In this document: positions 2,529 through 56,231 of the stretch, piece by piece
How the letters are laid out: every line of letters begins with the position of its first letter
Numbering within the stretch: position 1 is the first letter of the stretch
Assembly (NCBI GenBank): GCA_037043015.1
Contig: CM073325.1
Span: 2,358,501-2,422,500 of the forward strand
Direction of reading: 5' to 3'
DNA: 64,000 nt
Origin: Bryum argenteum
Lineage: Eukaryota > Streptophyta > Bryopsida > Bryales > Bryaceae
Notes under the pieces: model-generated
The model's database searches: none
What the model was told of the DNA's origin: nothing
What the model saw: only the letters and a program-made list of their open reading frames with translations
Position numbers and translations under genes: made by a program

Positions 2529-2780
2529 CCATAAGATACAGCAGAAGGACATACACCAGATGCTGTGAATTACCTCGGCTTGCCCAAATAGGTACAATTA
2601 CTGTAGATCCCAAGTCTTTAACCCCTAAAGTTGAAATCGACCTCATTGTAGTCCATTTGCTCAAAATACATATATTGTGTTTGTAAAAATTAAACTTTGG
2701 TTGAATATGTTTATTGGAAACGTTGTCTACGTTACTTGATTAATTCGGTGGAATTCAATAAAATTGGTGCCTAGACTAAT

Positions 2781-3047
2781 TAACCCCTAAACGCCAAAGG
2801 GGGGGGGGGTGGGTAAAGCTCCAAAAAGCTTGTAAAAACGCTGATTTTTTCAAAACAGCGTAAAAGAAAAAATAAAATGAAAATGGATAATCCAACCGTA
2901 GGATCTTCTTTGAAGCATGGCAGTTAGTATGCCTACCGATTTACATGCCATTTGGAGCTATGGATTCCAAGATCCATGCAAAAAAGGGATGAAAAACGCC
3001 CCCAAAAAAGGAGGGGCAGCAAGCATCACTCCACTTTAGGGGTGTAA
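2781..3047. mobile_element. TTAA-bounded non-autonomous element, piggyBac-like MITE (copy 1)
   Basis: The left end reads TTAACCCCTAAACGCC and the right end CTTTAGGGGTGTAA, an inverted repeat in which the right TTAA has decayed to GTAA. Inside is a ccaaccgtaggatctt motif shared with the copies at 5138, 44733, 58359 and 62523. Length is 267 bp, almost equal to the 268-269 bp of the copies at 5138 and 44733. A further isolated TTAACCCCTAAAG end lies at 2618. TTAA target duplication followed by CCC ends is the known signature of the piggyBac superfamily. Assigning this family to piggyBac is inference from those ends. Confidence 0.7.
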
Positions 3048-3463
3048 TACTTTTTTTGGGAGCCTCGGATAGAAATAATTCTTTCTAAAGAAAGGAAGAT
3101 AAGAGAGCATAGAAGAAGAATCCGAAAACGGAATGTGATTTTTTTATTTTTTTTTAAAATAGCGGCAATCCACCTTGCAAGGCAAGGTGGTGAAATTGTG
3201 GCCAAAAGGAGGGCAGTCCTATAGAAGGAAAAGAAATTAAACTCCCAAAGATTATTGTTTTTGCTCAAAGAAGTGTTGGCCTGTAACAAATGACATGATT
3301 TAGCCCAAATATCTCAAAATCTACCAAACGAATGTCGCTAAAACTTGGCAGGTTGACTAATTGGACGGCTACATATTCAAATTACTACTATTAGATTTCA
3401 GAAATTGGACTCCCAAATATTTTTTACATTGAATTCAAGCTAGAGGGTTTGAGAGTGACGCAC
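3048..3463. other. spacer between MITE copy 1 and transposase
   Basis: AT-rich DNA with homopolymer runs (T and A tracts around 3140-3160). Short minus-strand ORFs show no recognisable product. It could be the 3' part of the piggyBac element, but no TTAA end was identified that closes the autonomous copy. Confidence 0.5.
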
Positions 3464-4378
3464 CTACTTGGCGCGTGCATAATGGGCCTTGCGATAGCAT
3501 TCGCCCAAGTGAAACCACGCATTGTCACAATCTCGGCACATGAGATTAGTACAAGGCGTCTTGGCCTTGCACTGGCGACAGATGTGTGGGTTCCCGGGAA
3601 CTTCTCCAACGAATGCACGCCCGGTTTGGCGTTGTAAACCGACACCACTCCACCACGACGTATCTCCCAATTCTCCATGAGGGAGAACCCGAGTTTGGTG
3701 ACAAAGTCCAAATGGGACTTAGGCCTCACCCCAAACTTCCTGCTCAAATCACGATGCACGATGGAGGAGTTCGTCATCGACAGGTCCATCAAAAACTTGA
3801 AGACCCGGTGCCACCACTTATGGCTCTTGGTCAACACGCTATAAACACCTCGGAGTTGATCATTCACATGAACTCCACGCATCTGATGCGTATACTCCAA
3901 ATGAATGGGTGAAGTAGGTACGTGAACTGTCTGGCCATTCGTGTACCGTGGCAGCGTGAGGGGGGACTCCGGGTCCGGCGAGAGCGGCTCTAAATGGGTA
4001 GATAGCAAAAGAACGGGTTTTTTATCAACCGAGACCAATGTACACAACTCACCGGTGGAGTGCATACACCAGTCCATCGCGCCTTGCGGCTCCTTCGCCC
4101 ACCGTCGCTTGTCGATCAAAGTCGACAGAAATCCGATACGATTGGCACGCACCGTACCCGTGCCGTACGTCCCCAACTCCAATATGTCCACCAAAAGCCG
4201 CGGCGAGGTGAAGAAGTTGTCGGTGACCGCGACGTGGCCTCGCCCATGTAGCTCCTCCATCAAATCCATGACAATCTCATAACTTGTCCTCGCCTCCCCC
4301 GGATTTGTCCGCGCCAAGTTCTTCTTCAAGTTGGCACGACCGCACCGGTGTACATCTGGAATTTGTACAAATACAATA

Positions 4379-4573
4379 AACCTCTTAGAACAATTGGATT
4401 TCACGTAGAACAACTTCTAACAAACTCAGAACAACATGGCTAACCTATTAGAACAATTTGGATTTCACTTAGAACAACTTGTAAGAAACTTAGAACAACT
4501 TGGCTACCCACTTAGAACAATTTGGATTTCACTTAGAACAAATTGTAATAAACTTAGAACAATTTGAATAACA
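4379..4573. repeat. approximately 65-bp tandem repeat inside transposase intron
   Basis: Three units of roughly 64-66 bp begin near 4381, 4447 and 4511. Each has the sub-motif ttagaacaa three times. They fill most of the 257-bp intron that joins the two halves of the catalytic domain. Splicing at 4612/4356 keeps the frame, giving YFSVQFSDVHRCG across the junction. Confidence 0.85.
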
Positions 4574-5137
4574 ATCTAAATAGAACTTTGCCCAAGTTCT
4601 AGCAACAATTACCTGAAAATTGTACACTAAAGTACTTCGACGCCGCGTCCGCCGCCGCCCACACCTTGAAACCAAACTTCAGAGGCATATTTGGCATATA
4701 TTGTTTCATGCCATGGCCGTATATCCCCTTGTACCTCACCATCATTTTGTCTGTGGTAACGAATTGATCTAAATTCCAATCTGCCATGCAACGGTCCCGA
4801 AGCTCATCTAACAACCACCGGAGTTTGACTAATTTGTCAAACTTGGGATGGTCACGTTCCGTCGGTGCCTCCGAATCATTCACGATATGCAAACACTTGC
4901 TAATGGCCTCAAATCTATTCCTGAACATGCAACCCGCAATTTTGCTACAATAAAAAAACGGCTCTCTCTTCCAATAAGCCCTTCTATGAGGCAAAACCTT
5001 CAACCCCATCAATTTGCAAATCTCGAGCCACGCTTCTAACTCAACCCTCCCTGACCTCCACCATGCACTTGGTCCCCTCGGGCGGTTCATGGAGGGGTCA
5101 ATCGAGGCGGCATACCTATTAGTCTCCCTACAAATTT

Positions 5138-5406
5138 TTAACCCCTAAAGGCCCATGATGTTTTGGAAGCTTGAAATCCCAACACTGACCACTATGTACT
5201 AATGCGGGTACGTCCAATATTTTTGGAAATTTTTGATAACTTCAACCGTAGGATTTTGAAGTAGACTACCATAGGTAGTAGTGTGAAAATTTTCAACCGT
5301 TGGATCATCACTGGATGTGAGATCATAACATTTGAAGTTGACTGTAAATTTTTTTTGGCCTTGACCGTAAAAGCCGAATCGGCGGCCGTGGGCCTTTAGG
5401 GGTTAA
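5138..5406. mobile_element. TTAA-bounded non-autonomous element inserted in transposase (copy 2)
   Basis: The ends are TTAACCCCTAAAGGCCCA at the left and its near-perfect inverse at the right, about 18 bp of inverted repeat including the TTAA on each side. The interior has tcaaccgtaggattttgaag, the family motif. It is 269 bp with both TTAA copies. It lies inside the transposase coding frame. Deleting the element plus one TTAA leaves TKQTLLKICRETNRYAA as an open junction, so the insertion is precise and post-dates the coding sequence. Confidence 0.9.
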
Positions 5407-5645
5407 TAGAGTCTGTTTGGTGAAAAACAAGTGGAAAACATCTTTCACACTAGGAAGATCCTTTGGCACATGTGTCGGGCCTGGCATCGGCCCATCGAAA
5501 GTACCGTGACCATGGTTATACTTGGGCCTTCCTTTCAACCAAAAGGCATCATTGTAACACTCTTTCAATGTAGGGGGCTTGTCCCAATTTCAGAGCCCCC
5601 TCACCCGCTGGAACTTACGCTCTTCCATTCGGCGTAAATTTTCCA

Positions 5646-6774
5646 CTAAAGGGCTGTTGTGGGGCTGTGGAGCTGCTGGAGTTGGTTGATGTTGACGCTG
5701 GCTGTCACCGCTATCTTCGTATTGGCCACACTGTACACCTTCTGCTGAGCCTGACCTGCCGTTGAGAAGATCCATTGGGTGGTCTCTGTGGCTCCTCTTG
5801 CCAGCCTTTCCAGTGCTTTCGTGCCATCCAGCTGCGCACAGAGCCATGGGCTCCCGCCCTTCTCCCATGTTCCGATCCGCTCTGTCGCTTGTCCGATCGT
5901 GGACGCCCCGCGATGGCGGGTGGAGCTCTTGGCTTCCGGTCTTGCCGAGTCCGCCGCTCTCCCGCCATAGCGACGGACCAGTCGCAGCTGCGCAGCTGCC
6001 AAAGCGATAAGGCGCCTGCGCCTCTCCGGCAAGACAACCTTTCCGCCTACGCCTCTCTCGGAGTCGTGCAGCAGCATCGTCCATCGCTGGCTGAGAACAT
6101 GGATCGCCGAAGGCGCTTCGATCGCGAGCCTCTTTGCTTCTGTACAAGCCGGTTCAGTAGCAATCCCGATTCTCCCAACATCGTCCTTTAGCAAGAAGAG
6201 ATCTAATTCTTTCTTGCTTTCTCTTTCAGATCCGGAGGAGTTAGAAATCAAGTCAAACTCAAAGGGCCAGATAGTATTCACTTCCTCCTCTTCTGTTTCG
6301 CAATGTGCGTCGATGGTATGAATCTCTCCAAATGGTACATTTAGCATTTCTCCCAATACATCAATTGAATACATTAATCTGTAAGTGTTATCACATACAA
6401 AACTCCGGACGGCTGTGCCACAAATCCACTCATCAGCATCTAAATCAGTATTGTTTGTCGTTTCTTCTCCTACTTGTCGCAAGAATCTTACTTCCACAGG
6501 GTCCGTGATGACGGTGGGCAGTAACTTCTCTAACTTCAAAGTTTTGTTGATGATTCCGGCATTAGGGGCCCTGTCTGTGGCCTGCAGCCTCGATGAAGGT
6601 ACCCGATGTGCTCTTCGTGCCTCCCCTGGAGGACCTCCACCCCGTATCCTCATCGGCAGTCTCTCTCCCCACGGTGGACGATGCTGATGTACGACTCTCC
6701 ACGGTGGACGCTGCAGTTGTTGGACTCCCTTGCTTACTAATCTGATCTCCCATGACCTGCAGCACATCATTCAA
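5646..6774 (-). CDS. unrecognised long ORF upstream of the transposase
   Basis: A 374-codon open frame (6770-5646, minus strand) encodes an acidic middle part (around DLDADEWICGTAVRSFVCD and HCETEEEEVNTIWPFEFDL) and a basic Arg-rich C-terminal part. The first 70 residues look less protein-like than an alternative frame starting at ATG 6774 (MNDVLQVMGDQISKQGSP...), which would need a frameshift near 6570 to join. At the 3' end the frame stops at 5646 while another frame runs on into ENLRRMEERKFQRVRGL and the transposase. It may be an N-terminal or accessory part of the same mobile element, or an unrelated gene. I recognise no domain. Overlapping plus-strand ORFs (5775-6191) look like shadows in this GC-rich stretch. 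Confidence 0.4.
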
Positions 6775-7566
6775 TATCGAAGATCACAAATTTAATTTGT
6801 TGAAACTTGGGTGTTTTTTACAGAGAAGATTCCCAACGCTCCGGGAGCATTCAGTTCTTCTTCAAGTCAGCGGGGTTTGAACCTACACACTAGCAACCAG
6901 AAGATCAAAATTGGAGCAATCCTCTCCCTCTGTCGGTGGCGGATCAATAAGAACGCCACGTCGTCTTCACGAACACGACGACATGACAAGAGCTACTATT
7001 CAATATGATCTCTATTATTGCGCACACAGCTTAAAAATGGATCAACTCGAAAGAAATCTAATCATTTGAAGAAAATCATAATCCCAGCCTTGCACAAAAT
7101 GTTTGTCTGATTCATGGGAGGCCAAAACTGACATGAAAGTTTCGCTAACAACATCTCATTCACTGTATGTCATTTGATAGTAACTTCTCAGACATGGCCT
7201 CGATTCTCATCTTTTTGTTTTCTGTGCAGGTTTATGTGTCCTGGGCACTTGGTTCGCTTCCGAAATGGAAGAAGGGAATCGGAGGCTTCGTGGTATCTCC
7301 AGAGAAGGATTTGTTAGGTGGCCACAGGTCACGAAAAGGAGTAGTGAAGCCCTCAGTATTGGCTGCTGCAACTGCTGTTGCGGCGGCGAAAGCAAACGCT
7401 GTCCTGGCCTCCATGGATCCGAATCCAGCAATAGAGCTCATGAACAATTACAGAGGGCGAGCTATTGTTGCCTAAGACGATCTCTTGGAATAGCAGGGGC
7501 GGTGGCGGATCGCATGCAAGGTTTCAATGTGAGGACGAATTGACCGTGAGAGTATAAATTAATGTA
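6775..7566. other. unresolved stretch with a possible terminal exon
   Basis: A tttctgtgcag acceptor at 7219-7229 precedes a plus-strand open frame to a TAA at 7473-7475 (starting VYVSWALGSLPKWKKG and including an Ala-rich middle). No upstream exon was found. The opposite strand is also open here. No product is recognised. Confidence 0.25.
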
Positions 7567-8590
7567 CCTTTTGGAAGTTGACACGGTTGCCGTCGTCACT
7601 CTTAAAGGCTGCTTCCGGCAAGTCGACCCGATTACCTTCGTCGGAGGAGGTACTGGACTTCGGGGCTCCAGTCAGAAGGTGGAGTTGACCACCTGCTTCC
7701 TCCGATCCGGTGCCAACCGTGTAGCGTGCTCCCAACTCGATTCCTCTTGGCCGCCAAGAGAGGAGCTGGATCCCAGCGACGGAGTTACTGATATCATGGG
7801 TTGGCTCCTTGTCCGGCTCAACGCTGACTTCTGGCTTAGTATTGGTGAATCTGACAAAAATTGTACAGGTAACATAATATTTTTATGACATTGCCTCCAT
7901 TACATGATCAGAAAATGCATGCACTCCATCCAAATCCCACCGTTACATCACTCTTAGTGTCTGATTAGAAATGAAAGTAACCAGTGCAAAGGAGAAACTT
8001 GAATTGTGAAAATTGGAATGTGAAAATTGCAAGATTGTTTTGTGTAAACTTACATGGCATTGCTTGTTGTGTTCTTGACAGTGATTGGTGTGATCTTGCC
8101 TTCTCCATCCTCCTCAGATGATGCTGAAGAGCATCTTGGCTTCTTCCTTTTCCCACCTTGAACTCTAAGCCGCTTCTTGTGCCCATGGCTAGAGGGCCAG
8201 ATTTGCCTAATTAGGGAATAGCTAGAGAAGGGGTGAAATCCCACCCTTGTCACCCTCTTCCACTCTCTCCCTCCACCCACTAAGGTGGTGGTAAAAGAGG
8301 TGTTTTAAACCCTCATGTGTGTCCCTCTTCTCAACTTTGTTAGAGCATGGCAAAGCAAGAAGTATGTTTCTATCTAAGAGGTTCTTGAGGAGTTGGATGT
8401 CTCCTTCACTCAAGCCCTTCTCCTCTCTCCCCCATCTCTCTATCTCCCTCCTAGCATTCTCCAATAACTCAATGTTTGGTGCCATTGTGGGTGGCAATTG
8501 TTCTAATTTATGCAAGAAATATTGGCCCAATGAAATGCCAAAGTTGGTGGAAATGGTAGAAAGGGCTGTTGGATTAGGTGTAAGGTGCAA
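7567..8590 (-). CDS. putative two-exon fragment of an unrecognised gene
   Basis: A minus-strand open frame ending in a GTAAGT donor near 8055 (with a basic stretch HKKRLRVQGGKRKKPR then CSSASSEEDGEG) can be joined in phase to an open 100-codon stretch after a ttttgtcag acceptor near 7866. That stretch ends in AAG followed by a GTACAT donor at 7566. A second minus-strand frame, 8590-8222 (with MAPNIELLENARREIERWG), lies upstream in another frame and could be an earlier exon or a decayed piece. The exact start is unclear. Long plus-strand ORFs at 7562-7888 and 8319-8618 overlap these, so the coding strand is not settled. Confidence 0.25.
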
Positions 8591-9420
8591 TTCAAATGTT
8601 CAAATTGAGGCCATGTAAGTAGTGGCCTCTAATTGCAATTAGGGTGGTTGATATAGTGGCTGGGCCACCAAAGAGGTGGCTGCCCTCATTATGGCCACTG
8701 AGCCCAACACTTTGCCACTTTCTTTTGCTCAAGTAACCTCCCTCTCAAAATTCTTTACCATTGTTTCTTTTGGGCTCTCTTCCCTGCTTGCCCAATCTCC
8801 AAGCAAAATTTTAGATCCCAATGCAAAAACTTTCAAGCAAAAAGTCTACTCCTCCCTCTCACAACTTGAAAATGCGATTTCTACTGTTTACCCAACTGCC
8901 CAGCAGAGTAAACCCGACGAGGAGGCGGGTAAAAAAAACCCCGGATGAAAAAATGATCGGATGAAAACAAGGCAGCAGTGGAAAGATGACGGTGTACATC
9001 CAGAATGTCGAAAAACGACACTCTGGGCGCTTAAGGGCTAGGCTAGAAACTAGCGTAGTTTCAGTGTCCACCCTCGAGAGGGGAAGTAGTATTGGTCCAA
9101 TTTCCCCTTGTCCGATGGCCATCAGGATATTAACATTACGAACAGACACCTCATTCACGCCAGCCCCTTTGAAAGGGACCGTAGTTTCTATCTATCTATC
9201 TATCTATTCATTCACGGTGTACATTTTACACTGAATGACTTTTAATGCCCCCAAGTCTTCCACTTCCAAAATTCATCACTAAAACAAGATGAATTCAAAG
9301 TTCATGATTCCAACTGGTTCAAATCCCTGCAGACTCTGCACATGTAGTGAATTTGATATCCTTTGATTGCCCCCAATGAGCTTGCCAATCTGAAATTTGA
9401 ACACAAGATCCAGAGTGTGG
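8591..9420. other. intergenic with short ORFs and a (tcta)n microsatellite
   Basis: Plus-strand ORFs at 8676-8948 and 8986-9234 encode nothing recognisable. A tcta microsatellite of about five units lies at 9187-9207. The remainder up to 9420 is probably the 3' flank of the kinase gene on the minus strand. Confidence 0.4.
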
Positions 9421-10941
9421 TTATGAACAATTTTGAATGCTCACTTTAGTCAAAATAGGAAAGAAAGCAGTGTGGAATAACGACCTTAAGTAGTACCACA
9501 TATTCATGTAAAGAGACAGCCATTTCAACACAATGATTGCAATTTGAAAATGTAAGAAACAGCACCATATAAAATAGTGAAAACATGAGACTCCAAAATG
9601 CTCAATCAAACAAAGGAAAATTAGTTCCACACGAATGCGAAGGCGAGTTTTGATGAAGCTGCAATTTATATAGAAACAATAATGTACAAGAAAAGATTTC
9701 AAACGACTGAAACCTCCAGAGCACAACAACCAGTCAATCGAAACCAAACATGAATCAGATTTTTCATGCTTCCATTTCTCACAAATTGAACCTAATTCTC
9801 CAACAGAGCTGGCAATATAGACATCCTCGACATGAGAAGATTCGTCAATATCAAGGTAAGTTGAATCTGCCTCCGAGATGGGTGAACCGCAGCCACCTTC
9901 TTCAACATCAGGAATTGAAGCTTCCAGGCATGTCGAAGGAGGGAGGGAGAGCGTGTCGGTGTCAAGAGTACTCGGGGGCGGAGAAACGGCTTTCGGTGAT
10001 CGAACAACGATCCAGGGGCCGTCAGGCATGCTCCAGGAATTGTCCTTTGACAGAGGGCTGATCAACCCGCGCTTGAGTAATGAAGGCGTGGAGGATGAGT
10101 CCGAGAATTCGGAGTCGTCCACGGTGATGGTGATGAGCTGCTTCGATGGGGGAGCACTGGCGAATCGACTCGTAAGAAATGGGTGGTGCAGGAGCTGGGC
10201 GCTAGTCCATCGCTTGGACGGCTCCCGCTGGAAGCAGCGGCTCAGAAAATCCTTCGCCTCCGCGGAGAGCGACGCCGGCACTTCGGGAATCTCCTCCGTG
10301 CACGCGATGTGATAAAGCGCCGCGAATTGGTTCGTCATCTGGCTCCACGGCGCCCGTCCCGTGGCCATCTCCAGCACAGTGCACCCCAGTGACCATATAT
10401 CACTCGCAGGCCCCTGGTCCTCCTGCAAGATCACCTCCGGCGCCATCCAGAGCGGTGTGCCCGCCATCGCGCGCTCCTCCCCCACTCGCTTCGACGATCC
10501 GAAGTCCGTCAGCTTCACCGCGCCTCCGCTCCCTACTAGAACATTCTTCCCCTTGATATCACAGTGCACAATTCCCTGACTATGCAAATACTCGATCCCC
10601 TGCACAATTCCCCGCGTGTACGTCCTGAGAAACTGCTCATCGAAGCTCGCGAATTGCTTGACGAACTCCGTCAGGTTCCCACCCGGCATGTGCTCCAGGA
10701 AAGCGTTTCGCAGAGTGATCCCGTCTTCGACTGTCCAATCGCTCCCGTAGCATCGCACGATGTGCTCCGAATTTAGCCCCTGGAGGATTTCAATCTCGTT
10801 CTCAATTGCCTGGAGCGCGCCCGGAGCGCTCGCTTGCACGCTCTTGACTGCGAAAACTTCCCCACAGTCCCTCTTCACCGCCAAATTCACGCTTCCGAAC
10901 GAACCTGCCCCGAGCAACTTCCCCCGAATCCAAGCTGCCAT
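9421..10941 (-). CDS. MAPKKK17/18-like protein kinase (tandem copy 1)
   Basis: A single-exon kinase gene. The N-terminal kinase domain (about residues 4-258) has the Gly loop GAGSFG (11-16), the ATP-binding Lys33 in FAVKSV, the catalytic HCDIKGKN with Asp128, DFG at 146-148, and GTPLWMAPEV (161-170), typical of MEKK-type MAPKKKs. These phosphorylate MAPKKs; in Arabidopsis the intronless MAPKKK17/18 type acts in ABA and stress signalling. The C-terminal tail is Ser/Pro-rich and regulatory-looking. The ORF is 506 codons against 438 in copy 2. The two tails stop aligning shortly after a shared WLLCSGG, so the last 80 or so hydrophobic residues here may be read-through into former 3' UTR. ATG 10941 is chosen because both copies share it and it lies about 65 bp below a TATA box. 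Confidence 0.85.
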   Translation of the reverse strand: MAAWIRGKLLGAGSFGSVNLAVKRDCGEVFAVKSVQASAPGALQAIENEIEILQGLNSEHIVRCYGSDWTVEDGITLRNAFLEHMPGGNLTEFVKQFASFDEQFLRTYTRGIVQGIEYLHSQGIVHCDIKGKNVLVGSGGAVKLTDFGSSKRVGEERAMAGTPLWMAPEVILQEDQGPASDIWSLGCTVLEMATGRAPWSQMTNQFAALYHIACTEEIPEVPASLSAEAKDFLSRCFQREPSKRWTSAQLLHHPFLTSRFASAPPSKQLITITVDDSEFSDSSSTPSLLKRGLISPLSKDNSWSMPDGPWIVVRSPKAVSPPPSTLDTDTLSLPPSTCLEASIPDVEEGGCGSPISEADSTYLDIDESSHVEDVYIASSVGELGSICEKWKHEKSDSCLVSIDWLLCSGGFSRLKSFLVHYCFYINCSFIKTRLRIRVELIFLCLIEHFGVSCFHYFIWCCFLHFQIAIIVLKWLSLYMNMWYYLRSLFHTAFFPILTKVSIQNCS

Positions 10942-11004
10942 AGCTAGCTAAACTCACTTCAAGTTTTCAAGTTCAAGATCAAACATCCGACAAGCTCCGC
11001 ATGG

Positions 11005-11678: not shown

Positions 11679-12995
11679 TCAGTCAAACAAAGATGGTTGA
11701 AAAGAGCAATTATCAAAGGAAACACACGAGATTTGGTGAAGCTGCAATTTATTATTTTTATGCAGTAATATACAAGACCTCCAACAACGGAGACCTCCAG
11801 AGCACAACAACCAGCAAAGCGGAATCAAACATGAATCATGTTTCCACTTCTCCAAAATGGAATCTAATTTTCTGGCAATACAATCATCCTCGACATGATA
11901 ATAACATTCGTGAGTCCCAAGGTAACTTGAATCCGCCTCAGAAATCTTGAAGCCGTCATCACCGCCATCAGCAACATCATCAGAGATCGCAACTTTCAGA
12001 AACGTCGAAGGAGCAAGGGTGTCGGTGTGGAGAGGCGGAGAAACGGATTTCGGTGATCGAACAACAATCCAGGGACTATCAGACATGCTCCAGTCCGAAT
12101 TGTCCTTGACTTGCACCGGACTGATCAAACCACGCTTCAGCAACGAAGGCGTGGAGGAGTCCGAGGAGTCCGAGAATTCAACATCGCAGTCCGTGGTGAT
12201 GGTGAGGGGAGTGGCGAATCGACTCGTAAGAAACGGGTGGTGCAGGAGCTGGACGCTCGTCCATCGCTTGGACGGCTCCCGCTGGAAGCAGTGGCTCAGA
12301 AAATCCTTCGCCTCAACAGAAAGCGACGCCGGGACTTCAGGAATCTCCTCCGTGCACGCGATGTGATAAAGCGCCGCGAATTGATTCGTAATCTGACTCC
12401 ACGGCGCCCGTCCCGTGGCCATCTCCAGCACAGTGCACCCCAGTGACCAAATATCAGACGCCGGACCCTGCTCTTCCTGCCAGATAACCTCCGGCGCCAT
12501 CCACAACGGCGTGCCCGCCATCGCGCGCTCCTCCCCCACTCGCTTCGACGATCCGAAGTCCGTCAGCTTCACCGCGCCTCCGCTCCCTACTAGAACATTC
12601 TTCCCCTTGATATCACAGTGCACAATTCCCTGACTATGCAAATACTCGATCCCCTGCACAATTCCCCGCGTGTACGTCCGGAGCAATTGCTCATCGAAGC
12701 TCGCGAATTGCTTGACGAACTCCGTCAGGTTCCCACCCGGCATGTACTCCAGGAAAGCATTTCGCAGAGTGATCCCGTCTTCGACTGTCCAATCGCTCCC
12801 GTAGCATCCAACTACGTAGTCCGAATTTAGCGATTGAAGGATTTCAATCTCGTTTTCAAGTGCATGGAGCGCGCCCGGAGCGCTCGCTGGCACGCTCTTG
12901 ACTGCGAAAACTTCCCCACAGTCCCTCTTCACCGCCAAATTCACGCTTCCGAACGAACCTGCCCCGAGCAACTTCCCCCGAATCCAAGCTGCCAT
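11679..12995 (-). CDS. MAPKKK17/18-like protein kinase (tandem copy 2)
   Basis: Second copy of the kinase, 438 residues, single exon. The kinase domain is nearly identical to copy 1, with Lys33, HCDIKGKN, DFG and GTPLWMAPEV all present. Differences are scattered (for example SDYVVGCYGSDW for SEHIVRCYGSDW). The linker after residue 260 is less conserved, with insertions such as SDSSDSSTPS. The C-terminus ends soon after the shared WLLCSGG region, so it is probably closer to the ancestral length than copy 1. Both copies appear intact and expressible. Confidence 0.85.
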   Translation of the reverse strand: MAAWIRGKLLGAGSFGSVNLAVKRDCGEVFAVKSVPASAPGALHALENEIEILQSLNSDYVVGCYGSDWTVEDGITLRNAFLEYMPGGNLTEFVKQFASFDEQLLRTYTRGIVQGIEYLHSQGIVHCDIKGKNVLVGSGGAVKLTDFGSSKRVGEERAMAGTPLWMAPEVIWQEEQGPASDIWSLGCTVLEMATGRAPWSQITNQFAALYHIACTEEIPEVPASLSVEAKDFLSHCFQREPSKRWTSVQLLHHPFLTSRFATPLTITTDCDVEFSDSSDSSTPSLLKRGLISPVQVKDNSDWSMSDSPWIVVRSPKSVSPPLHTDTLAPSTFLKVAISDDVADGGDDGFKISEADSSYLGTHECYYHVEDDCIARKLDSILEKWKHDSCLIPLCWLLCSGGLRCWRSCILLHKNNKLQLHQISCVSFDNCSFQPSLFD

Positions 12996-13058
12996 AGCTA
13001 GCTAAACCCAGTTCAATTCTTCAAGTTCAAGCTCAAATTTCCGACAAGTTCCGCATGG

Positions 13059-44732: not shown

Positions 44733-45000
44733 TTAACCCCTAGAGGTCCTTGATACAAAATTGTTTAAATTATCAAAAAGAACCTTCTTCTACTTCAGGT
44801 GCAAAGAAACTCAATCTAAGCATTGATTAGAAGATCCAACCGTAGGATCTTGAAGTTAACTTGACCCTTTTCTTGAATGTCAAATTTGAACCGTTAATTT
44901 TTCTCCAATTTTGAGATTATAATGGTCAAAGTTGGCTGAATTTTCTCCCTGCGGAAATTCCAAAAAGCGATTTCCGCTTTCTTGGACCTTTCGGGGTTAA
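44733..45000. mobile_element. TTAA-bounded non-autonomous element (copy 3)
   Basis: Ends TTAACCCCTAGAGGTCC and GGACCTTTCGGGGTTAA form a 17-bp inverted repeat with intact TTAA at both ends. The family motif ccaaccgtaggatcttgaag lies inside. It is 268 bp long, about 0.5 kb upstream of the dirigent-like gene. Confidence 0.9.
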
Positions 45001-54150: not shown

Positions 54151-56231
54151 TTATGATTCAGCAGCCGCTTTCGCTTCCTGCGGCCTCCGCAGCTTCACCT
54201 TGAACTGAGCCTCCTTCGAAGGCCCGAATTCAATGATATCCTCGGGACGAACTCTGGCTGGCATCTTCGGTGACAGCTTGTACCTCCCACCTGAGACGCT
54301 CGTAATCCATGTCCCTGTTTTGCTCTCAAGGTCCGTAAGGTACAGAGCACCATCCACGAATGTGAGCTTGGCGTGCTGCTCGGCAACGTGAGGAAGCTTG
54401 ATTGCGTGGTGGATAGCTCCATTTTCACATGGCTCGCATCCTACGAAGGTGGGTGTGCCATTGTCTCGACATATACGTAGCAATGGCTTGCCGCTTTCTG
54501 TGACCTCCCCATCGATGGGGAGCCGCTCGGGTGCGGGGACGAGGTACCACTCTGCGTTGGTAGCTCGCTCGAGAGCGTCATCGTTCCAGAACCACTTCTT
54601 CAAGTTGGAATCTGCTTTGTCTTCCAAGCTGCAGTAAGGCGCACGACCTTCCAATGCGAAGGAGTTCCCACCCAGAATCCAGCTGAGCATAGTCGGCATT
54701 CCGATCGTGATGAAGAATCGCCCTCCCACGCGGCCCGGATGCGGGATCTTGAGATCTTTAATGAATGAAAGAGGACCCAGTCCTTCTCCGAGGTATGGTT
54801 TGTATGTGCTTGCCATTATGGCCGCCATTCGGGCTAACCCGTGGATCACCCCGACGCGAATTCGTCTCTTGCCCTCGTACTCCTTTAGGACACGTCCGAG
54901 GTCGGCAGATGGTTGCTGTGCAGCTTTGGAGAGATCGAGCGCGAGTTGGAATCCGTCCTCGATCGCCATGCATCCGCCTTGGCCGAGGTTAGGTTGCATC
55001 GCGTGCGCGGAGTCGCCGAGTAGCGTGACGCGCCCCTTGCTCCATGTCATGATGGGGATGCGATCGTAGATGTCCCGTCTGAGGATCTGCTCCTCGGGGG
55101 TGGCGTCCAGGAGGTCGACCACTTTGTCGCACCAGCTGCCGAAGAGCTCCATCAGCCTTGCTTTTCGACCGCCTGGGGCGTCAACGCCTCCGGCTGGCTC
55201 GTTGTAAAACGCGTACCATTGCATTTTTCCCTGACCTACGTCGGAGGAGACGAAGTACTGCTTGTGACCGAGAAAGACTCTGTATCCGACTGTGTCGATG
55301 TCGGCGGGTACAAAGTCAGCGATACCTGTGTAACAAGTGTAGTCGGAGTACACTGTGGCGGTTTCACCGAGCAGTTTCGTTCGCACTTTCGATCGGATGC
55401 CGTCGGCGCCCACTAGCACATCACCCTCGAACGTCCGTCCATCCTCGAGCATCACCTGCAAAAATGCAATGCTTTTGATCAGCTGATTGCTCATCCCAAT
55501 TGGTGAAGAACTCTATTGCAAGTGTGAAGGAGAACGGAGAATCTATTACTGACCTTGACCTTGCGCCCATCGTCCACGAAGTCGACCACGTTGCAGCCGT
55601 TCTGGATGTACTCGTGCCCTAGGGCACCTGAAAGAATCTCCTGGAGCTTCATCCGGCTGATGACGCGCGTGACGGGGAGGCCACGCTCGGCAGCGGGAGT
55701 GAAGGTGTCGAACTTGCAGTACCATTCACCGGAGATGCCATCGACCAAGCCGTTGATGCGATCGCCTGTGACGCAGCCATTCGACAATATTTCCTCGGCG
55801 GCTTTTCGGTCCACTGCCTCGAGGGCTGCGAGCGCGTTGCTCTGAATCTGGATGGGGCCTCGGTACTGGCCTTCACCTCGGATGGCGCTCAAGTCGCGCT
55901 CGAACACCACCACGTCTAAGCCCTTGTTCTTGGCTGCCAGAGCGAGCACGAGCCCGCCGATTCCACCGCCGGCTATGAGCACTCGCAACGGCCGCGTCTT
56001 CGGAGCTAGCGCTTCATTCGCCTCGGGTGTGCTTGTACGCGTGCCCTCTTCCACCGTCTGCGTCCTTGCAACGCAGATTGCTCTTCTCCTACTGGGTTCC
56101 GCGGTAGTTGCGGTACTCAAAGTTGCCCTCCTCCATGACACGTCCAAAAAATCCGAAGCTCGAGTTCCCTTTTGCAACACTGAGGACGAAGCTAGCCCCG
56201 CAACCGCAGGGATAGCACACGTAATCACCAT
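54151..56231 (-). CDS. ZEP: zeaxanthin epoxidase, chloroplast, two exons
   Basis: Exons 56231-55554 and 55455-54151 (minus strand) join in phase to 660 residues. The enzyme converts zeaxanthin to violaxanthin through antheraxanthin in thylakoids, feeding the xanthophyll cycle and ABA synthesis. A Ser/Arg-rich transit peptide covers about 1-60. FAD-binding motifs are GGGIGG (88-93), ending in FERD, VLVGADGIRSKVR, and GDSAHAMQPNLGQGG (about 373-387). A C-terminal FHA domain (about 548-640) includes VGCEPCENGAIHHAI, HVAEQHAKLTF and SKTGTWIT. Length and order are typical for plant ZEP. The two-exon structure is unusually simple for a family that is intron-rich in angiosperms. No damage seen. Confidence 0.96.

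Follow-up and report, generated by a model that had tools for sequence, protein, structure and literature searches.

A piggyBac-type MITE in a piggyBac transposase gene of the moss Bryum argenteum, and a piggyBac family with matching ends

The interrupted transposase gene and its host element

The window, by which we mean the whole 64,000-nucleotide stretch of Bryum argenteum contig CM073325.1 analysed here, carries a transposase gene that is encoded on the minus strand and interrupted by a short element. The gene, which a preliminary description had taken for a piggyBac transposase, is indeed matched by the PF13843 (DDE_Tnp_1_7) profile in two minus-strand pieces, at 4599-5144 (E 4.7e-26) and 3424-4416 (E 1.1e-22), of which the first also matches both of the solved transposases piggyBac (6x67) and piggyBat (9c0f), and the second piggyBat only. 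Along the gene strand, the frame upstream of the insert lies at 5407..5589 (minus strand) and is in frame in nine of the ten readable paralogs. The frame downstream of it, at 4602..5137 (minus strand), holds the N-terminal half of PF13843 with the ETNRYA segment (E 4.7e-26; 6x67 E 1.5e-07), and the C-terminal half of the domain, with its piggyBat match, follows at 3427..4355 (minus strand); the two profile pieces are parted by a candidate intron with GT-AG borders, at about 4356-4612. We note that this candidate intron is built of about 64-bp repeats and that the number of tandem units varies among the paralogs.

The gene lies in a piggyBac element (family A) that spans about 2780-9037 and has at least 11 close paralogs, 92.0-93.7% identical to the window copy. 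Its left end (2780..2795, plus strand) reads TTAACCCCTAAACGCC, and TTAACCCCTAAACGCCC is present at the same boundary in 8 of the 11 paralog loci L010-L020, the exact TTAACCCCTAAACGCCC being absent from the left boundary in L014, L015 and L020. The right end, which starts CCCT in this family, lies at 9025..9041 (minus strand) in the window copy and reads GGGCGCTTAAGGG over 9025-9037, followed there by CTAG, whereas TTAA follows GGG in all five paralog right ends read (L061-L065). The paralog loci give family A terminal inverted repeats with TTAA at both ends, and a DDE_Tnp_1_7 domain with three catalytic aspartates, the third of which is a histidine in the window copy itself. The three aspartate motifs are matched exactly in four of the six family-A paralog loci searched; in that motif search L013 has no match to TDNFF and L018 no exact third motif.

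The insert, its empty sites and its copies

The interrupting element occupies 5138-5406, is 269 bp long and has TTAA at each end, with the exact boundaries given in the preliminary description; the net insert is 265 bp, composed of one TTAA and 261 bp. Positions 5138-5155 and 5389-5406 form perfect 18-nt inverted repeats, TTAACCCCTAAAGGCCCA. Without the TTAA, the terminal inverted repeats (TIRs) are perfect over 14 bp, the left one (5142..5155, plus strand) reading CCCCTAAAGGCCCA, identical in two copies of a second piggyBac family described below (family E, L083 and L084), and the right one (5389..5402, minus strand) being its inverted-repeat match. In its account of piggyBac/TTAA miniature inverted-repeat transposable elements (MITEs), a coral study gives TIRs of 12-19 bp with a CC[C/T]T terminal motif (PMC2872659). 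The repeat here starts CCCCT, so that its first four bases are CCCC as against the CC[C/T]T typical in that account (PMC2872659), and the motif is shifted by one base. The element is short, non-coding and present in many copies, and its TTAA target is duplicated, as seen in all 40 copies read and in the empty sites.

The empty sites come from a survey of 11 family-A paralogs and one more distant copy, L082. Ten of the 11 paralogs are readable at the insertion point and the insert is absent from all ten; the eleventh (C2:7.05 Mb) has a deletion adjoining the site. A single TTAA is present in nine of the ten and TAA in the remaining one (C6:16.1 Mb), and L082 (C6:19.18 Mb), also without the insert, reads TTAG. 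When the flanks of the window copy are joined through one TTAA the minus strand reads ...FFTKQTLLKICRETNRYAA..., and nine of the ten readable paralogs give TLLKICRETNRYA across the site, the TAA copy being out of frame, so that natural sequences, and not only the joined flanks, have the predicted frame. The preliminary description had held that removal of the element restores the frame cleanly, that it entered an exact TTAA target and left the flanks unchanged, and had proposed a search for the same locus without it; the paralogs agree with these statements and supply such empty sites, with the one TAA copy as the exception to the single TTAA.

These empty sites also bear on whether the segment is simply an intron, since the frame is open on both of its sides and a candidate GT-AG intron is present elsewhere in the gene, at about 4356-4612. 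The borders of the segment, TTAACCCC...GGGGTTAA, are not GT-AG, it is missing from all ten readable paralogs and it recurs at many unrelated sites in the genome. An ordinary intron would be expected to have GT-AG borders and to be present in relatives, and as neither is found we reject this reading as extremely improbable.

Forty full-length matches to the element, the window copy included, were read with their flanks in the genome (258.8 Mb in 25 contigs). They come from 1108 first-look candidates, 40 of which were scored, and as the best-scoring matches they are a set biased to near-identical copies; one 67% partial match was omitted. TTAA lies on both sides of all 40, and the bases beyond it vary. 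The 39 copies other than that in the window have one and the same 269-bp sequence, from which the window copy departs at two positions. A 36-mer of the left end, with up to three mismatches allowed, is found at 362 places in the genome, as against none for the reversed control; with this difference and the 40 TTAA-flanked copies, chance flanking by TTAA is excluded on these counts. The palindromic TTAA does hide the exact position of the cut, and it could be asked whether the element is a MITE of another superfamily, such as PIF/Harbinger (with a TAA or TTA duplication) or mariner (TA), at which TTAA is incidental. In the 40 copies each of the four letters is invariant on both sides while the next bases vary, and the partner family with the same ends encodes PF13843, which together leave such an origin a vanishingly small probability. 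With its 18-nt inverted ends, TTAA-flanked copies and empty paralogs, the segment at 5138-5406 is confirmed, on sequence evidence, as a piggyBac-type MITE inserted in a piggyBac transposase gene.

An older and diverged relative of the MITE, 268 bp long, lies in the same window at 44733..45000, where 170 of 251 aligned letters are identical (score 95, against a best of 36 in 200 shuffles). Given the near-identical copies and this diverged relative, the burst of MITE copies looks recent and the lineage old.

Several other TTAA-associated arrangements were seen. At L018:604-836 (C2:17.7 Mb) a family-A piggyBac lies at a TTAA within a 94% relative of the MITE, of which one junction side was read; at the nesting point the window MITE reads GTAA. 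Back-to-back neighbours have one TTAA in common at L006:1501-2033 (C4:17.6 Mb), at L011:3261-3280 (a family-A copy) and in a pair of family-E elements at C2:1907221-1918618 (C2:1.91 Mb), as if the second element had used the duplicated target of the first. Within the window, further single ends of the TTAACCC[C/T]TAAA type, whose partner ends were not located, are present at 2618, 36778, 58569, 60873 and 62771, and are probably those of other TTAA elements. At 1,343 places in the genome a piggyBac-like end has next to it a TGTCG...CGACATT palindrome, which is also seen sub-terminally at the 5' ends of families A and D and of a further family, B; these places are candidate element ends.

A probable partner family for the MITE and the decay of its host

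A search with the 18-letter MITE end and either A or G as the next letter, by which the canonical MITE is excluded, gives 227 places. Among the first 100 listed there are 31 neighbouring facing pairs under 12 kb, of which 30 are 5,700-5,716 bp and one is 11,156 bp. Two copies of this family E, L083 and L084, were read; each is 5,704 bp between the outer TTAAs, and they are 99.6% identical in their main alignment. L083 has a 714-aa stop-to-stop frame with a PF13843 match (E 1.1e-58) that covers profile positions 3-249 of 349, and a match to piggyBac (6x67; E 2.2e-18), whereas in L084 the PF13843 domain is split over shorter frames. The three aspartate motifs are present in both copies, the third being in a different frame in L083, and a complete open transposase gene was not found in either of the two. 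The host and family-E transposases are 42% identical over 169 aa.

The terminal letters of family E and the MITE are identical at 18 of 18 positions at both ends in L083 and L084, and the likeness extends inwards. Positions 1-233 of the MITE align to the right end of E with 163 of 228 aligned letters identical, an alignment that scores 119 when the inverted repeat is removed, the best of 500 shuffles being 39. At its other end the MITE aligns over 38-44 bp to the left end of E, where the match without the inverted repeat is marginal (23, best shuffle 22). About 29% of the inner aligned letters differ between the MITE and the E copy read, so that E as read is not the direct parent, and the MITE appears to have arisen from an E-like ancestor by an internal deletion. 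The kinship of the insert with piggyBac, and the comparison of its ends with those of complete piggyBac copies, both put forward in the preliminary description, are thus borne out by family E, in which the same ends and sub-terminal sequence accompany PF13843.

Related ends are also seen in other families. Those read from families A to D begin CCC[C/T]TAA, as does the MITE, and the left end of family A and the 5' end of family B each have 13 of the 14 letters of the MITE repeat, one letter off. Further in, these two ends resemble the MITE weakly or not at all. Twelve comparisons that set the MITE against the sub-terminal sequence of families A, B, C and D are mostly at chance level; the exceptions are the A 3' end (31) and the C 5' end (29), which score above all 200 shuffles (best 26), and the B 3' and D 5' ends with 24 each, a score reached by 7 and 10 of the 200 shuffles. 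A genome search for the 5' end of the MITE followed by GATGTCG found none with the G and five family-B ends with C instead. Other piggyBac families with the same ends as the MITE may be present in the genome, and family A or B may cross-mobilise it. We note that the family-B copies L066-L068 contain, close to the 3' side, a long tandem array with units of about 40 bp.

The window copy of the host is the most diverged of its family and has lesions of its own. An in-frame TGA at 5590..5592 (minus strand) is private to it, being present in none of 16 other rows (11 copies). A private 1-nt deletion near 3585 (3580..3590, minus strand) shifts the frame of a C-terminal cysteine-rich stretch and is absent from the nine other copies aligned, L018 having different changes near 3580-3590. 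At 3856..3882 (minus strand) the third catalytic motif reads GVHVNDQ, as compared with GVDVND in relatives, the D being present in all ten paralogs examined and in the outgroup L082; the H aligns with a D of piggyBat, and we take the D of GVDVND to be the third catalytic aspartate of the piggyBac transposase.

Substitutions polarised with L082 allow the host and the MITE to be compared. The branch of the window copy itself has changes at 45 of 1664 usable sites, as against 2 of 261 in the MITE; of the same 1664 sites, 24 are derived in the paralog ancestor and 4 are ambiguous. The host rate predicts 7.1 changes in the MITE, where two are observed (Poisson P 0.028 for two or fewer, Fisher P 0.08). 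An unpolarised count for the host (177 private changes among 3873 columns, P 0.0006) was dropped because it is inflated, the window copy being the outlier of its family. The larger number of changes per site on the host branch than in the MITE makes insertion into an already decaying gene the more likely order, and weakly suggests that the MITE landed late.

In the scenario that we favour, an E-like ancestor underwent an internal deletion that would have left some 230 bp from one end joined to some 40 bp from the other, giving the MITE. A family-E transposase, the product of a younger 5.7-kb family, would then probably have acted in trans and inserted the MITE by cut and paste at a TTAA within the host transposase gene, with duplication of that TTAA. 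The host element, which belongs to family A, would probably have been decaying already when the MITE arrived, and the MITE may still be mobile at present. We consider it highly probable that the MITE derives from an E-like ancestor, was mobilised in trans by the younger E-type transposase and entered a host already in decay.

A different scenario, in which family A moved the MITE into its own gene, would make this a true self-inactivation of an active element, as the preliminary description had proposed. The family-A left end, CCCCTAAACGCCCA in eight paralog loci, has 13 of the 14 repeat letters, the A 3' sub-terminal stretch has a ACCGTAGGAT-like motif in common with the MITE (score 31, best of 200 shuffles 26), and the family-A copy inside a MITE relative at C2:17.7 Mb implies that A was mobile after that MITE lineage existed. 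The right end of A, CCCTTAAGCGCCCA, however, has only 11 of the 14 letters, whereas E matches 18 of 18 at both ends and has a far better sub-terminal match, which makes it the best partner of the MITE. The window copy also has its own stop codon, frameshift and lost catalytic aspartate, and more changes per site are found on its branch than in the MITE. With these independent host lesions and the larger number of host changes per site, self-inactivation is unsupported, and we think it unlikely that family A moved the MITE; mobilisation by an E-type transposase is preferred.

Known TTAA elements and other features of the window

The closest described parallels are the coral CMITEs, piggyBac/TTAA MITEs with TTAA duplications and empty sites (PMC2872659). 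In what that paper gives of them, they resemble the element here in being small, in having TIRs, a TTAA duplication and an empty-site allele, and in the presence of piggyBac-like sequences in the same genomes; they differ in that the host here is a plant and the element is about 269 bp rather than about 100 bp (PMC2872659). Relative to that description, there is here also a family that has the same 18-bp ends as the MITE and sub-terminal sequence in common with it. The host pieces and family E are like piggyBac (6x67) and piggyBat (9c0f) in having PF13843 and matching them by sequence; the likeness is remote, and the host gene has an apparent intron. A further TTAA MITE, Wuneng, is presumably a plant element, and we know of no partner transposase for it. 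It is mentioned in the coral paper (PMC2872659), and is similar by description to the MITE here, as a MITE with a TTAA duplication. The elements here are about 6 kb, as compared with 2-3.5 kb in the figures given for beetles in PMC12732532.

In plants, piggyBac has a slight presence in the literature. Six TIR superfamilies are distinguished in a review of land-plant elements whose main text makes no reference to piggyBac (PMC9033089). In a MITE survey that covers 207 plant genomes, five superfamilies and one special group are used, and the words 'piggyBac' and 'TTAA' are absent from the main text (PMC12550479). A statement in the beetle paper describes piggyBac as occasional in plant genomes such as red algae (PMC12732532), and a ciliate paper says in passing that PiggyBac transposons produce MITEs (PMC9942856). 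A plant review includes PiggyBac among its superfamilies (PMC10794571) and a fern repeat table has 1,230 PiggyBac entries (PMC6890710), so that on these two entries piggyBac is already on record in plants. Among the matches listed from the open-licence literature there was no study with a plant piggyBac as its main subject, and in the moss genome paper PMC10619864 the matched text has no piggyBac, only the word 'piggybacking'.

Nested MITEs and the mechanism of insertion are ordinary, and the mechanism is well supported as far as sequence alone can take it. It is less ordinary for a plant genome to combine several piggyBac families, including a young one, with a recently amplified and matching piggyBac MITE. 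We lean slightly towards a plant piggyBac system that was active very recently and perhaps still is, consisting of the 5.7-kb family E and the MITE with its hundreds of copies. This would then provide a natural example from plants of piggyBac amplification in which both partners are available, within a group for which piggyBac is hardly listed in surveys and reviews, and the occurrence of a MITE and a transposase family with identical ends makes the driver of plant TTAA MITEs testable.

Among the other features of the window, a frame at 54154-55512 combines FAD_binding_3 and FHA domains, which we take to be the layout of zeaxanthin epoxidase, and is in line with a plant source, as are 28 tblastn pieces of the NAC domain in the genome. 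Two adjacent and similar protein kinase-like frames lie at 9424-10947 (the one scanned against Pfam) and 11682-13001, and are probably a tandem duplicate.
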